From Bacteroidales bacterium (lineage in GTDB: Bacteria; Bacteroidota; Bacteroidia; Bacteroidales; Muribaculaceae): a stretch of DNA of 64,000 bases. The stretch is from assembly GCA_014800795.1 (NCBI GenBank), contig JAAVFL010000004.1, positions 124,001 to 188,000 of the forward strand, read 5' to 3'. Numbering within the stretch: position 1 is the stretch's first letter; the number at the start of each line of letters is the position of its first letter. The notes under the pieces were generated by a model. That model saw only the letters and a list, made by a program, of their open reading frames with translations, was not told where the DNA came from and ran no database searches. This document shows positions 45,793 through 51,756 of this stretch, in pieces. A program made the translations under genes and the position numbers.

Positions 45793-46470
45793 ATGAGAAA
45801 AACTAAATATGCTATTTATTTATGTATATTACCGGTGGTGTTGAATAGCTGTAGTGATGACGATGGATATTCATCGGATTACTGCAAGACGGAATATACT
45901 TATGATGAAGGAAAAGATCTATTCTGTGAGAATGAAAGAAATGCAATTCTTACTGATGTCAAAAATGAAATGGGAATTGAGTTCTCAGCGGGTCCTAAGG
46001 TTACTTTCTTATGGATTACATCTCAGGAACTTGTTGACGAAAACTGTTTTGCTGGAAAGGAAGGAGGATTTATGTCGATAACGAAAGGAGATTGTTATTA
46101 TCCGACACCATATAAGGATGGCTATGCGGAAGGTGAAATTATTTCAGAAATATTGGCATACCCGTTGGTTCCAAAAGAACGATACATACTTCCGGTATTG
46201 TCGGGTGTGGATTGGTCCGACACAGGTGTGGAGATCATAGATACGCACGAAAACAAGGAGATTCCGTATGATAACTGCGAGTTTGTGTACCGTGGTTGGC
46301 TTCAGGTCACTCTCGGGGGTGAGGATGAGAAGCATCGGTTTATAAAACTGAAGTCTATAGCTGAGGCTCCTGAGGGTTACGAGACCGCCCGGCTGTATTT
46401 CAATCCGGCGTATGATTTTGTGAACAATATGATAACGGTCACTCAGCAGGGTTACCCACCATCGGAGTGA
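45793..46470 (+). CDS. Mosaic lipoprotein paralogue A, function unknown
   Basis: 225 residues; lipoprotein signal MRKTKYAIYLCILPVVLNSC (Cys20) then SDDDGYSSDYC. The N-terminal half (residues to about 144) includes ILTDVKNEMGIEFSAGPKVTFLWITSQELVDENC; the C-terminal half, GVEIIDTHENKEIPYDNCEF through GYETARLYF, is nearly identical in paralogue B at both DNA and protein level. It ends NMITVTQQGYPPSE. Surroundings are A/T-rich compared with the flanks. No family is recognised. Confidence 0.78.
   Translation: MRKTKYAIYLCILPVVLNSCSDDDGYSSDYCKTEYTYDEGKDLFCENERNAILTDVKNEMGIEFSAGPKVTFLWITSQELVDENCFAGKEGGFMSITKGDCYYPTPYKDGYAEGEIISEILAYPLVPKERYILPVLSGVDWSDTGVEIIDTHENKEIPYDNCEFVYRGWLQVTLGGEDEKHRFIKLKSIAEAPEGYETARLYFNPAYDFVNNMITVTQQGYPPSE
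46224..46402 (+). repeat. 179-bp duplicated coding segment, copy A
   Basis: Matches 46982-47160 with six base differences by my count, all in the coding frame of the two lipoprotein genes. The sequences on its 5' side are unrelated. Confidence 0.9.
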
Positions 46471-46565
46471 CCTGTAGTTCTAGGTTATTTGTCATTCCGT
46501 TTTTAGGTTCTCGTAATATGCGGAGGATAGATGTTCCCTTCCACTTATTAAACAATGAAATATTT

Positions 46566-47177
46566 ATGAATAAGATAAAAGAATGGTTGCCCTTATTTGT
46601 AATAATGGGAATAAGTATGTACTTTATCGGATGTACTAACAATAATAATATAGATTGTGATGAAAGCAGAGATGGAGTGTCTCTTTTCGAATCTGAGGCT
46701 CGTAGCGTAGTTCTTACTCCAATTAATGCCGATGCAGAAATACGGTATTCTGCCGGTTCATATGTAACATTGTGTTGGGTTACATCTCAAGATGTATCTG
46801 AAGATAATCTTACGAAATTGAGAGGTGGTGGAGTGGGTATTATGATAAAGGGTGACTCCTATTTCCCATATATAGATCAGGAAAAATATCTCTCAGGAGA
46901 GATTCTAACGGAAGAAGTGGTAAATGGGGCGGATATATATAGAATATTTCACATCTATTCAGAGCAGGATTGGGAAGAAATAGGTGTGGAGATCATAGAT
47001 ACGCACGAAAACAAGGAGATTCCGTATGATAATTGTGAGTTTGTGTATCGCGGTTGGCTTCAGGTCACTCTCGGGGGTGAGGATGAAGAGCATCGGTTTA
47101 TAAAACTGAAGTCTATAGCTGAGGCTCCTGAGGGTTACGAGACCGCCCGGCTGTATTTCAGGCGTATGATTTCGTGA
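46566..47177 (+). CDS. Mosaic lipoprotein paralogue B, 3' end frameshifted
   Basis: Start at 46566 (MNKIKEWLPLFVIMGISMYFIGC, lipid Cys23); the ORF-track start at 46467 overlaps paralogue A. Its N-terminal half differs from A but keeps a similar plan (VVLTPINADAEIRYSAGSYVTLCWVTSQDVSEDN). From GVEIIDTHENKEIPYDNCEF it is nearly identical to A. After ETARLYF a 4-bp deletion relative to A (TTCAATCCGGCG versus TTCAGGCG) shifts the frame and gives the short end RRMIS; the ancestral frame, AYDFVNNMITVTQRGYASVE, still runs open to TGA at 47222-47224. The protein may still be functional. Confidence 0.75.
   Translation: MNKIKEWLPLFVIMGISMYFIGCTNNNNIDCDESRDGVSLFESEARSVVLTPINADAEIRYSAGSYVTLCWVTSQDVSEDNLTKLRGGGVGIMIKGDSYFPYIDQEKYLSGEILTEEVVNGADIYRIFHIYSEQDWEEIGVEIIDTHENKEIPYDNCEFVYRGWLQVTLGGEDEEHRFIKLKSIAEAPEGYETARLYFRRMIS
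46982..47160 (+). repeat. 179-bp duplicated coding segment, copy B
   Basis: Partner of 46224-46402, ending just before the 4-bp deletion. Confidence 0.9.
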
Positions 47178-47342: not shown

Positions 47343-47714
47343 TTACTCATCAACAGGGGCATCCGTGCCGGGGCGCTTGCCGGGGCGTGTGTTGGCTGCC
47401 TCAAGAAGCTGGACGAGGGTCCGGCGGATTTCGCGGAGGCGCTCTACGGCCCGGGCGCGTTTTGAGATGTTGGCGTGGTTGTGACGGATCTGCTCTTCGG
47501 CGGCTTCGAGGTGCAGCCCTTTCTCCTTTACGAGATATGTCACCATGCGCAGACGTTCGATATCGGCGGGAGTGTAATAGCGTCTGCCGCTTTCGCTACG
47601 TTTGGGTTTGATTATGGTGAATTTCTTCTCCCAGAAGCGCAGGGTGGAAGCGGGCAGACCGAGTATGTCGGCTACCTCCTTTATTTTGTAGTATTTCTTG
47701 TCAAGCTCTGCCAT
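47343..47714 (-). CDS. MerR-family transcriptional regulator
   Basis: 123 residues. The winged helix-turn-helix is YYKIKEVADILGLPASTLRFWEKKF (residues about 8-32) followed by RRYYTPADIERLRMVTYLV; a short coiled-coil (GLHLEAAEEQIRHNHANISKRARAVERLREIRRTL) completes a dimer helix. There is no visible ligand-binding domain. Its first nine codons (MAELDKKYY) lie in a 27-bp direct repeat that recurs next to alaS, showing that its former upstream region has been separated from it. Confidence 0.92.
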   Translation of the reverse strand: MAELDKKYYKIKEVADILGLPASTLRFWEKKFTIIKPKRSESGRRYYTPADIERLRMVTYLVKEKGLHLEAAEEQIRHNHANISKRARAVERLREIRRTLVQLLEAANTRPGKRPGTDAPVDE

Positions 47715-47717
47715 GGC
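47691..47717. repeat. 27-bp direct repeat, left copy (inside merR)
   Basis: GTATTTCTTGTCAAGCTCTG plus CCATGGC; identical to 48972-48998. On the minus strand it spells GCC-ATG plus codons for MAELDKKY. Confidence 0.95.
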
Positions 47718-47801
47718 CTTTTTTAATTAGCGTTACAATAGCGTATCTGTGAATTAGAAACAGATTTAATCTAACCTGTATATGAATAAATCAAAAAATC
47801 G

Positions 47802-48944
47802 CTACTGGTCATTATCTTGATTACTGTCAGATAATATGCCTTTTTCTAACTCGTCCAGTGTAGGGATTGTACCTTCAATTTTTTCAGGATATAAGCGAGC
47901 CAGATCGTATTCCGAGATTCCGAGAGGAAGGTTGCTTGCTTCAAGAGCATATTGAGCTACAATGTTGTCTTTCTCTTTACAGATAAGAATGCCAATTGTG
48001 GGGTTGTCTCTATTTTCTTTTCTCAAGATATGATTACATGCTACTACATATCCTCCAAGCTGACCAGCATCAGCAAAGTCAAATTTACCAATTTTCACCT
48101 CGATAACGACATATGCAGATAGATTCAAATTATAAAATAGGAGATCTATGAATTTTTCTGTTTCTCCTATTTGTAATCTGTATTCGCGTCCTACGTATGC
48201 GAATCCCGTCCCCAGATCAATAAGAAATTGTGTAATATTATTTAATAAAGCATCCTTGAGTAGCTTTTCATTGTATCGTGAGGTTATTCCGGTAAAAGCG
48301 AAATTATATGGATCTTTGGTCAATTCCTGAGCAAGATCACTTGTGATTTCCGGAAGCGTCCGTTTGAAATTAGTCAAGGCTTTGCCTTTACGCTTGAATA
48401 GATCAGTAGCTATAAAATTACGAAGCATATCTCTGCTCCAGCCGTTTTTGATAATCTCTCCTGCATAGAATACCGCTTTTTCTGGATTATTGTGAAATTT
48501 ATCGATTAGCAACATCTGGTGTCCCCAGGGGATCTGATAGATGCTTTCCTTTAAATTTGCAACAATTTGCTGCAGATTCCGGGGTGATAATGTGTTGTTG
48601 TTTGACCTCGTTGATGGTTCTGAATTTGCAGCAGCTTGCTGCAAATTCAGAATATAATCGGAATAAAGATTGTAGAATCTCTGAGCATATCTGATATTTC
48701 TTTCCGATAATCCGGTTGCTCCCGGCAGAAGTCTTTTCAGATCTCTGCTTAAAGCGGCGTAAAAAGAGGAACCGTATCTGTTCTCGTCGCCACGCTCGGT
48801 TATATCCTTGCCAAGAAGCCAATAAAAATGTAGCATTTCCTGGTTTACCTTCACGGCGGCTTTGATTTGACTTGTACGATATCTTGTGCATAGGTCTTCG
48901 ACCCATGCGAGATAATTATTATCAAGAATGGTTATAGACTTCAT
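47802..48944 (-). CDS. DUF1016 (YhcG-type) PDDEXK nuclease-fold protein
   Basis: 380 residues. The N-terminal DUF1016 domain has AAVKVNQEMLHFYWLLGKDI and GLSERNIRYAQRFYNLY; the C-terminal nuclease fold has the PD-(D/E)xK pattern FIDLLFYNLNLSAYVVIEVKIGKF (Asp ... Glu-x-Lys) and QLGGYVVACN. The linker, residues about 102-140, carries an imperfect repeat of NLQQxxAN units. The family is common on mobile and defence-rich regions, with unclear biochemistry. It lies in an islet flanked by 27-bp repeats and points into merR. Its A/T-rich codons differ from alaS and from the flanks. Confidence 0.92.
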   Translation of the reverse strand: MKSITILDNNYLAWVEDLCTRYRTSQIKAAVKVNQEMLHFYWLLGKDITERGDENRYGSSFYAALSRDLKRLLPGATGLSERNIRYAQRFYNLYSDYILNLQQAAANSEPSTRSNNNTLSPRNLQQIVANLKESIYQIPWGHQMLLIDKFHNNPEKAVFYAGEIIKNGWSRDMLRNFIATDLFKRKGKALTNFKRTLPEITSDLAQELTKDPYNFAFTGITSRYNEKLLKDALLNNITQFLIDLGTGFAYVGREYRLQIGETEKFIDLLFYNLNLSAYVVIEVKIGKFDFADAGQLGGYVVACNHILRKENRDNPTIGILICKEKDNIVAQYALEASNLPLGISEYDLARLYPEKIEGTIPTLDELEKGILSDSNQDNDQ

Positions 48945-48959
48945 AGGTTAGTATTCTTA

Positions 48960-48995
48960 TCAAATCCGGAGGTATTTCTTGTCAAGCTCTGCCAT
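48960..48995 (-). other. 11-codon remnant of the merR start
   Basis: Minus strand ATG at 48995 reads MAELDKKYLRI then TGA. The first eight residues are the merR N-terminus. It lies directly behind a -7 box and before the DUF1016 gene, so it may act as a leader peptide or be inert. Confidence 0.6.
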
Positions 48996-48998
48996 GGC
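48972..48998. repeat. 27-bp direct repeat, right copy (beside alaS)
   Basis: Exact copy of 47691-47717. Together the copies bracket about 1.25 kb holding only the DUF1016 gene. Confidence 0.95.
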
Positions 48999-49005
48999 GT
49001 ATCAA

Positions 49006-49037
49006 TTTGCAAAAGTAGTAAAAAAAGCGTAATTTTG
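49006..49037 (+). promoter_or_regulatory. Promoter of alaS
   Basis: TTTG (49006-49009), 20 bp, TAATTTTG (49030-49037); the leader to the ATG at 49120 is about 75 nt. Confidence 0.82.
49010..49017 (-). promoter_or_regulatory. Divergent -7 box, the probable original merR promoter
   Basis: Minus strand TACTTTTG, adjoining the alaS -33 box so that the two form TTTGCAAA. It now faces the merR remnant and the DUF1016 gene. Confidence 0.55.
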
Positions 49038-49119: not shown

Positions 49120-51756
49120 ATGAGCAACAAACCTCTTACTGCAAAGGAGATCAGAGAATCGTTCAAGCAGTTTTTTGAAAGCAAGGGGCACCATATCGTT
49201 CCGTCGGCCCCGATGGTAATAAAAGACGATCCCACGCTGATGTTCACCAACGCGGGTATGAATCAGTTCAAGGATATCATTCTGGGCAACAAGGCGCCGA
49301 AATGGACCCGCGTCACCGACAGCCAGAAGTGTCTCCGCGTAAGCGGCAAGCACAACGACCTCGAAGAGGTGGGCCACGACACCTACCACCACACTATGTT
49401 CGAGATGCTGGGCAACTGGTCGTTCGGCGACTACTTCAAGAAGGAAGCCATCGACTGGGCCTGGGAATTTCTCGTAGATGTTCTCGGACTTGATCCGGCT
49501 CATCTTTATGCAACCGTTTTCGAAGGTTCTCCCGCCGAGGGGCTCGGACGCGACGACGAGGCCGCCTCTTACTGGGCTGCGCACCTGCCCGAGAGCCATA
49601 TAATAAACGGAAACAAACACGACAACTTCTGGGAGATGGGCGATACAGGGCCCTGCGGTCCATGCTCAGAGATCCATATCGACCTCCGCAGCGAGGAGGA
49701 GCGCGAGGCTGTTCCCGGTGCCGAGCTTGTGAACAAGGATCATCCTCAGGTTATCGAGATCTGGAACCTCGTGTTCATGCAGTTCAACCGTAAGGCCGAC
49801 CATTCGCTCGAACCGCTCCCCGCAAAGGTTATCGACACCGGAATGGGCTTCGAACGTCTCTGTATGGCTCTTCAGGGTAAGAAATCGAACTATGATACCG
49901 ATGTGTTCACCCCCATGATCGCCAAGATCGCCGAGCTTTCGGGCAAGAAATATGGCGAGGATCACAAGGTGGATGTGGCTATGCGCGTTATCGCCGACCA
50001 TATCCGCACAATAGCTTTCTCGATCGCCGATTCGCAGCTTCCCGGCAATGCCAAGGCCGGCTATGTGATCCGCCGCATCCTGCGCCGTGCCGTTCGGTAT
50101 GCTTATACTTTCCTCGAGCAGAAGGAAGCGTTCATGTACAAGCTCGTCGACACACTTATCGATTCGATGGGCGATGCTTATCCCGAGCTTAAGCAGCAGC
50201 GGGAGCTTATAATGCGTGTCACCAAAGAGGAGGAAGATTCGTTCCTGCGCACTCTCGAGAACGGTATCAAGATGCTCGAAAGTGATATAGAGGCAGCGCG
50301 TAAAGCGGGTAAAACCGAGATTGACGGTGCCGAGGCATTCGTATTGTACGATACATACGGATTTCCCCTCGACCTTACTCAGCTCATATTGAAAGAGAAC
50401 GGAATGACACTTGATCAGGAAGGATTCGACCGCGAGATGGCTGCTCAGAAGGCGCGTGCGCGCAATGCTGCCGCAGTTGAAGCTACCGACTGGGTGACCG
50501 TGCGCGAGGGGGATCAGGAGTTTGTAGGCTACGACCACACAGAAACTCCGGCCCGCATTCTCCGCTACCGCAAGGTGAAGCAGAAAAACAAGGAATATTA
50601 TCAGATTATACTCGACCGCACCCCATTTTACGCCGAGATGGGCGGTCAGGTAGGCGACAGTGGCACACTGACTGCCCCCGATGGTGAAGTGGTGGAGGTG
50701 TTCGACACCAAGCGTGAGAACGGTATCGGTGTTCACCTTACACATAAACTGCCTGCCGATCCGTCGGCGGAGTTCACCGCCGCAATCAATAAGGAAGCAC
50801 GACGTGCCACATCGTGCAACCACACTGCAACCCATCTTCTCCATGAGGCTCTCCGTGAGGTGTTGGGAACGCATGTGGAGCAGAAAGGCTCGTATGTATC
50901 ACCCGATATCCTCCGCTTCGATTTCTCCCACTTCCAGAAAGTTACCCCCGAGGAACTGCGCAAGGTAGAGCATCTCGCCAACCGTAAGGTTCGCGAGGCA
51001 TATGCACGCGACGAACGCCGCAACGTGCCTATCGAAGAGGCCCGTAACATGGGCGCCATGGCGCTCTTCGGCGAGAAATACGGCGACGAAGTGCGTGTGA
51101 TCCGTTACGGTAGCTCCGTAGAGCTTTGCGGTGGCACTCACGTCGACAACACGGGAAATATCGGTATGATAAAAATTATCTCCGAGAGCAGCATTGCCGC
51201 CGGCATACGCCGTATCGAGGCTATCACCGGGGAGAATGTCGAAAAAGCCATCGACACCATGACCGACACCATGCATGAGATCGGAGCTATGCTTCATAAT
51301 GCTCCCGATCTGCTTGCTGCTCTGAAAAAAGAGATAGAGGAGAATGAGAGCCTCCGCAAGCAGGCTGAGGAGGCCTTCAAGGAGCGCGTGGCTCAACTGA
51401 CTTCCAAGCTGGTGGCAGATGCGGAAGATATCTGCGGAATGAAAGTTGTATCTATGACAGGACAGCGTCTGCCGGATGTTGTCAAAAATGTTGCTTTCGG
51501 AGTTAGAAATGCCTCACCGGAAAACACCGTTTTCCTCGGAGCTACCTGCGACATCGCCGGCAAGCCCCTCCTCACTGTAATGTTTACCAACGATCTCGTA
51601 GAGGCAGGGCGCAATGCGTCGCAGCTTGTACGCGAGGCAGCCAAAGCTATCAAAGGGGGCGGTGGCGGTCAGCCCGGTTTCGCCCAGGCTGGCGGCAAGG
51701 ATGCCGACGGACTGGCGGCAGCTTTCGACATCATGCGCAATTTGCTGAAGGCATAA
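49120..51756 (+). CDS. alaS: Alanyl-tRNA synthetase
   Basis: Starting at the ATG at 49120 ([20 protein letters not shown]) gives 878 residues, the usual bacterial AlaS length; the ORF-track start at 49042 would fall at the transcription start. Class II motifs are [20 protein letters not shown] and [14 protein letters not shown]; the editing domain has [16 protein letters not shown] (HxxxH) and the distal [10 protein letters not shown] zinc ligands; the C-Ala end has [16 protein letters not shown]. It charges tRNA-Ala and clears mischarged Ser and Gly. gmd follows after 24 bp. Confidence 0.97.

Follow-up and report, generated by a model that had tools for sequence, protein, structure and literature searches.

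A gene for a DUF1016/YhcG nuclease stands between a merR-family regulator gene and alaS in a genome of the Muribaculaceae, which raises the question of how a single gene came to lie between a host gene and its promoter, and how it is controlled there. The window, i.e. the whole stretch of 64,000 nucleotides analysed here, contains the start of merR as an exact direct repeat of 27 nucleotides, GTATTTCTTGTCAAGCTCTGCCATGGC, located by a repeat search at 47691-47717 and 48972-48998 with a spacing of 1281. About 1e-7 such repeat pairs are expected by chance in 64 kb. Both copies are read on the minus strand. The inner copy forms the start of the intact merR gene (47343-47714, minus strand; PF13411, E = 6e-23), the target with its rebuilt start. 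The outer copy belongs to a broken merR start of 11 codons, MAELDKKYLRI* (48960-48995, minus strand), whose frame ends 15 bases ahead of the nuclease start codon. The 1254 bp between the copies (47718-48971) are missing between merR and alaS in relatives and encode the DUF1016/YhcG gene alone, without a methylase or an integrase. Both the repeat at the ends of a one-gene block and the missing integrase had been reported in the first-pass annotation, and both are borne out.

A Bacteroidota-type -7 box, TACTTTTG, is located outside the outer repeat copy (49010-49017, minus strand) and now lies upstream of the nuclease gene. The divergent neighbour alaS (49120-51756, plus strand; PF01411, E = 9e-196) has a -7 box of its own, TAATTTTG, at 49030-49037 on the plus strand. 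In the nearest relatives, the merR -7 box (CAAAAGTA on the plus strand) directly precedes the merR start. Thus, the insertion cut merR off from its promoter and at the same time restored its start. As proposed earlier, the nuclease gene appears to be the first gene behind the native merR promoter. From this arrangement we infer that the box TACTTTTG now drives the broken leader together with the nuclease gene, and that merR would be transcribed by read-through; a weak promoter-like stretch may also be present between the nuclease gene and merR. Further along the window (45793-47177), two adjacent lipoprotein-like genes without a Pfam match share nearly identical C-terminal halves.

The comparison of the merR-alaS junction across relatives, suggested by the same annotation, supports an insertion at the 5' end of merR. 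An orthologue of merR is present in 59 of the 61 genomes searched, including the genome itself (58 of 60 relatives). In ten genomes of the same genus, merR and alaS lie next to each other in divergent orientation, separated by 79-302 bp, with a single merR start and no insert. Their merR genes are about 52-78% identical to that of the window, so the empty site is deduced from orthology to merR genes of at most 78% identity and not from an otherwise identical strain. Eight more distant genera contain about 1.1 kb between merR and alaS, which is not DUF1016, and a search with the window nuclease detected no DUF1016 gene at merR in any of the 29 relatives' loci examined. The same genome encodes a second, distant DUF1016 gene (L002, contig C5) between uvrC and a saccharopine-dehydrogenase-like gene. 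It is bracketed by a 43-bp promoter-bearing repeat (1124-1166 and 2350-2392 of this locus), and in three genomes of the same genus uvrC and the dehydrogenase gene are adjacent without DUF1016.

The inserted gene (47802-48944, minus strand) encodes a protein of 380 amino acids that matches both family domains, PF17761 DUF1016_N (E = 5e-31) and PF06250 YhcG_C (E = 9e-54), above the curated cut-offs. It also matches the PADLOC profile of the phage-defence candidate PDC-S02 (E = 6e-145). The window protein is thus a full two-domain member of the family, and its PD-(D/E)XK catalytic motif is intact, with D267, E282, and K284 aligned with the family. The catalytic triad is retained in 190 of 191 DUF1016 genes. 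The fold model is of moderate quality (pLDDT 72) and predicts a helix at residues 81-107, separated by a short turn from the preceding helix 53-72; the residues S80, R82, and R85 belong to this putative helix-turn-helix. The C-terminal domain of the family resembles the DNA-cutting EndoMS/NucS, and a sequence-based search returned no solved structure. The family is widespread and present in E. coli K-12, and no established function was found for it. Judged by the listing of PDC-S02 as a phage-defence candidate, the nuclease probably acts on invading DNA. Few relatives occur in phage records, and a pattern scan of IMG/VR identified none. On the Anabaena plasmid pANA02 (L303), a DUF1016 gene separates cas3 from cas10d within a type I-D CRISPR-Cas operon.

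To place the merR insertion within the family, 224 distinct DUF1016 genes were gathered, mostly from Bacteroidota, and 220 of these were used for a count of direct repeats. The 400 bases on either side of each gene were compared, requiring a local alignment score of at least 15. Expectation was obtained by pairing the flanks of different genes, and 240 other genes in the same loci served as controls. Direct repeats bracket 34 of the 220 DUF1016 genes, where 0.33 are expected, compared with 11 of the 240 control genes (4.6%; Fisher p = 7e-5). They measure 15-236 bp and are unrelated in sequence between loci. Duplications of the merR start, which had been predicted around other DUF1016 genes, were not seen, as every locus duplicates its own target. 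In the remaining 186 genes no bracketing repeat is detectable; these may represent older insertions that have decayed, or genes that arrived by other routes.

Fifteen named target genes are cut at one end and kept intact through the second repeat copy, all of them in sense orientation to the DUF1016 gene. Targets at their 5' ends include merR, mnmG, a kdsB-like gene, a metallophosphatase, a PD-(D/E)XK gene, and hsdS, while type IIG/ISP methylases, gdhA, hsdS, a PPIase, ThiF, and hsdM are targeted at their 3' ends. The clearest parallel to merR is mnmG in locus L105, with the order repeat TAAATGACTGAAAAT, broken leader, nuclease gene, and intact mnmG. Pairs of DUF1016 genes that are 85-97% identical at different loci share homology only from about -80 to 0 bp before to 0 to +50 bp after the open reading frame, so the mobile unit consists of little besides the reading frame. 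At two different sites the same repeat flanks the same gene (L108 and L111), so a repeat can be carried along with the DUF1016 gene. Repeats have also moved with the gene in L072 and L077. The latter, a case beyond the fifteen above, lies beside a convergent gene, and its repeat was apparently carried along; hence not every repeat is a fresh copy of the target.

Insertion with a long target duplication is known from restriction-modification genes of Helicobacter pylori (Nobusato et al. 2000, as cited in PMC1643837 and PMC3031569). As these insertions are described there, they share with DUF1016 a gene without a transposase, long and variable direct repeats, and a formerly single-copy target. 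The window presents both an exact repeat of 27 bp and single-copy relatives without the insert. Unlike the H. pylori insertions so described, DUF1016 is a lone nuclease without a methylase rather than a restriction-modification system, occurs in many species, lands in sense at gene ends, and carries a palindrome of its own.

The likeness to integrative elements put forward in the first-pass annotation is not supported where these rely on an att site. No integrase is located in the inserted block, the repeats of the other members have no common core, and they occupy the 5' ends of some genes and the 3' ends of others. By eye, no shared terminal motif or inverted ends are visible at the junctions of repeat and insert. 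The pattern therefore fits insertion with a long and variable target duplication better than an att-site cassette. A tyrosine recombinase acting in trans, by which a circular DUF1016 molecule would be integrated at an att site within the start of merR, would account for the rebuilt merR start. It would also be in line with two plasmid copies of DUF1016 that directly follow an integrase gene, and with loci in which unlike DUF1016 genes alternate with repeats (L247 and L118) in a manner resembling tandem accretion; most other copies, however, have different neighbours, and we regard this route as unlikely. In L247 (492-3189, reverse-complement frame), the order is hsdM, repeat, DUF1016, repeat, second DUF1016, repeat, and hsdS. 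The two DUF1016 genes are only 33% identical, and hsdM and hsdS are named from translated ends; we read this locus as an array built by several insertions into the same junction. Ordinary homologous recombination, by tandem duplication or by single-crossover integration of DNA that carries DUF1016 together with part of the target gene, is a possible though not a probable source of the repeats. The longest ones, of 184-236 bp (L247 and L136), are long enough for RecA, and many are 91-97% identical rather than exact. However, such recombination leaves unexplained how gene and target were first joined, as well as the perfect cases of 15-27 bp at merR and mnmG.

The second feature of this gene family lies within the coding sequence. 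The window gene contains a 27-bp palindrome, GAATTTGCAGCA-AGC-TGCTGCAAATTC on the coding strand, at 48622-48648 with its centre at 48635. Its perfect arms reach 48618-48652, forming a 16-base perfect inverted repeat, and a second copy with two mismatches is located at 48554-48578. Such 27-bp palindromes with a gene-specific core are found near codon 100 in nearly all DUF1016 genes, in one to four copies per gene; yhcG of E. coli K-12 has three. In 68 of the 224 genes a perfect palindrome with arms of 11 or more is present, nearly always at nucleotides 240-360 and with a sequence that differs between genes. Among 191 non-redundant genes, 150 reach a hairpin score of 8 or more at nucleotides 230-460, compared with 12 expected from synonymous-codon shuffling, and the best hairpin of the whole gene falls in this region in 175. 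The layout is roughly AATT, variable arm, centre, variable arm, and AATT. Arm pairing amounts to 76-98% out to 13 bp and drops to background level at position 14, and the centre lies in codon phase 0 in 144 of 145 genes. At least two copies with nearly the same core are present in 92 of 195 genes, and core identity is 81% within a gene and 40% between genes. The palindrome is found in Bacillota, Deinococcota, Cyanobacteriota, Actinomycetota, Planctomycetota, and Pseudomonadota, and encodes an unconserved, flexible linker of the protein that has low confidence in the fold model.

The arms of the palindrome vary with the N-terminal half of the protein to a degree that the nuclease half does not account for. 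This covariation was assessed by permuting the arms within subfamilies. The strongest link is between residue 82 and base 7 (z = 17), followed by residue 85 and base 8 (z = 9), and residue 80 and base 6 (z = 7). The codons of residues 80-85 do not overlap with the palindrome. An arginine at residue 82 is accompanied by G at arm position 7, while threonine, serine, glutamine, and aspartate are accompanied by C or T. Similarly, arginine or lysine at residue 85 goes with G, sometimes T, at position 8; tryptophan, tyrosine, and phenylalanine go with T, and glutamate with C. Two E. coli yhcG alleles combine R85 with G8 and W85 with T8, respectively. Arm position 2 is linked to residues 141 and 171-176, but these links may be due in part to the division into subfamilies, so reliance is placed on residues 80, 82, and 85. 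A held-out set of 20 genes from other phyla, taken from plasmid records outside the training set, showed G7 in all 11 genes with Arg82 compared with one of the nine others (p = 7e-5); this single exception is from Variovorax, with an uncertain N-terminal alignment. Taken at the level of sequence, these data indicate that each DUF1016 protein probably binds the palindrome in its own gene.

We consider it reasonably likely that the window holds a solo DUF1016 insertion with a 27-bp target duplication, whose palindrome is an operator read by its own helix-turn-helix. A nearly bare DUF1016 reading frame would land at the end of a host gene in sense orientation, duplicating a variable stretch of the target. 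The host gene would remain intact, and its promoter or operon would drive the nuclease gene. The N-terminal helix-turn-helix would then read the gene-specific core of the palindrome in the linker-coding part, and protein bound inside its own gene could hold back transcription. Such self-repression might keep the dose low wherever the promoterless gene lands. We favour an operator since a gene that arrives without a promoter and comes under unrelated ones would need to carry its control site within the mobile unit. A broader proposal sees DUF1016 genes as mobile elements of one gene each, which bring about their own insertion together with a variable duplication of the target, and whose coding sequence contains a recognition site coevolving with the DNA-reading helix; it is tentative, and we regard it as possible rather than probable.

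As the catalytic motif is so widely retained, the self-site could serve cleavage instead of repression. The nuclease would cut copies of its own gene, be they incoming, sister, or competing ones, and the resulting recombination would be part of its spread. The resemblance of the C-terminal domain to a DNA-cutting enzyme and the varying number of palindromes between E. coli strains, from one to three, are consistent with this proposal. However, unless the site were protected, the nuclease would cut its own gene in all hosts, and the window gene has no partner methylase next to it. Furthermore, the palindrome is not in excess beyond chance within 1500 bp of DUF1016 genes, insertion targets included, and the copies in the window's own genome are confined to the nuclease gene; a cleavage site is therefore rather doubtful. 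No copy was detected in IMG/VR either, and neither a homing target nor a REP-like family is supported. An mRNA hairpin controlling translation or mRNA decay is very improbable. A stable hairpin would form in the transcript, but G-U pairs are not enriched among the mismatches (0.12 versus 0.127 expected), which points to a constraint on DNA and not on RNA, and the core bases vary together with helix-turn-helix residues in the manner of a protein that reads DNA.

I-TevI is an autoregulating homing endonuclease with an operator at its own promoter. DUF1016 resembles it as a mobile nuclease with possible repression of its own gene, but its site lies within the coding sequence, and a search for a homing target, meaning a recognition sequence where the gene inserts, found none. 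Rickettsia palindromic elements are in-frame palindromes inside open reading frames that form repeat families in unrelated genes (Ogata et al., as cited in PMC4316617). By this description, DUF1016 palindromes are likewise in frame inside open reading frames, but they are confined to one gene family and one fixed place, with a gene-specific sequence. A literature search, for the most part outside subscription journals, found no published in-gene palindrome or such movement for DUF1016/YhcG.

With dozens of cases, the repeat pattern extends the older concept of insertion with a long target duplication, framed for restriction-modification systems, to nucleases that stand alone. The in-gene palindrome provides a predicted DNA target for each DUF1016/YhcG member, and the residue-base rules (Arg82 with G7, an aromatic residue 85 with T8, and Glu85 with C8) bring this target within reach of simple binding assays. 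It is unusual for a coding sequence to be under constraint to keep a site for the protein it encodes, and such a site would suit a gene that moves without a promoter.

The yhcG alleles of E. coli vary at the palindrome. Three alleles (L305 3828-4955, L311 2001-3050, and L310 4001-5113) contain three, one, and two palindromes, respectively, and also differ in recognition-helix residues. The yhcG gene of E. coli B ends near nucleotide 406 (L306 4001-4405), and that of another strain starts at nucleotide 385 (L307 4001-4744). E. coli yhcG was discarded as evidence on the movement of DUF1016, as it occupies one fixed place and its truncated alleles are linked to insertion sequences. Both cut alleles break within the third palindrome, next to transposase genes, and the palindrome may thus attract insertion sequences.
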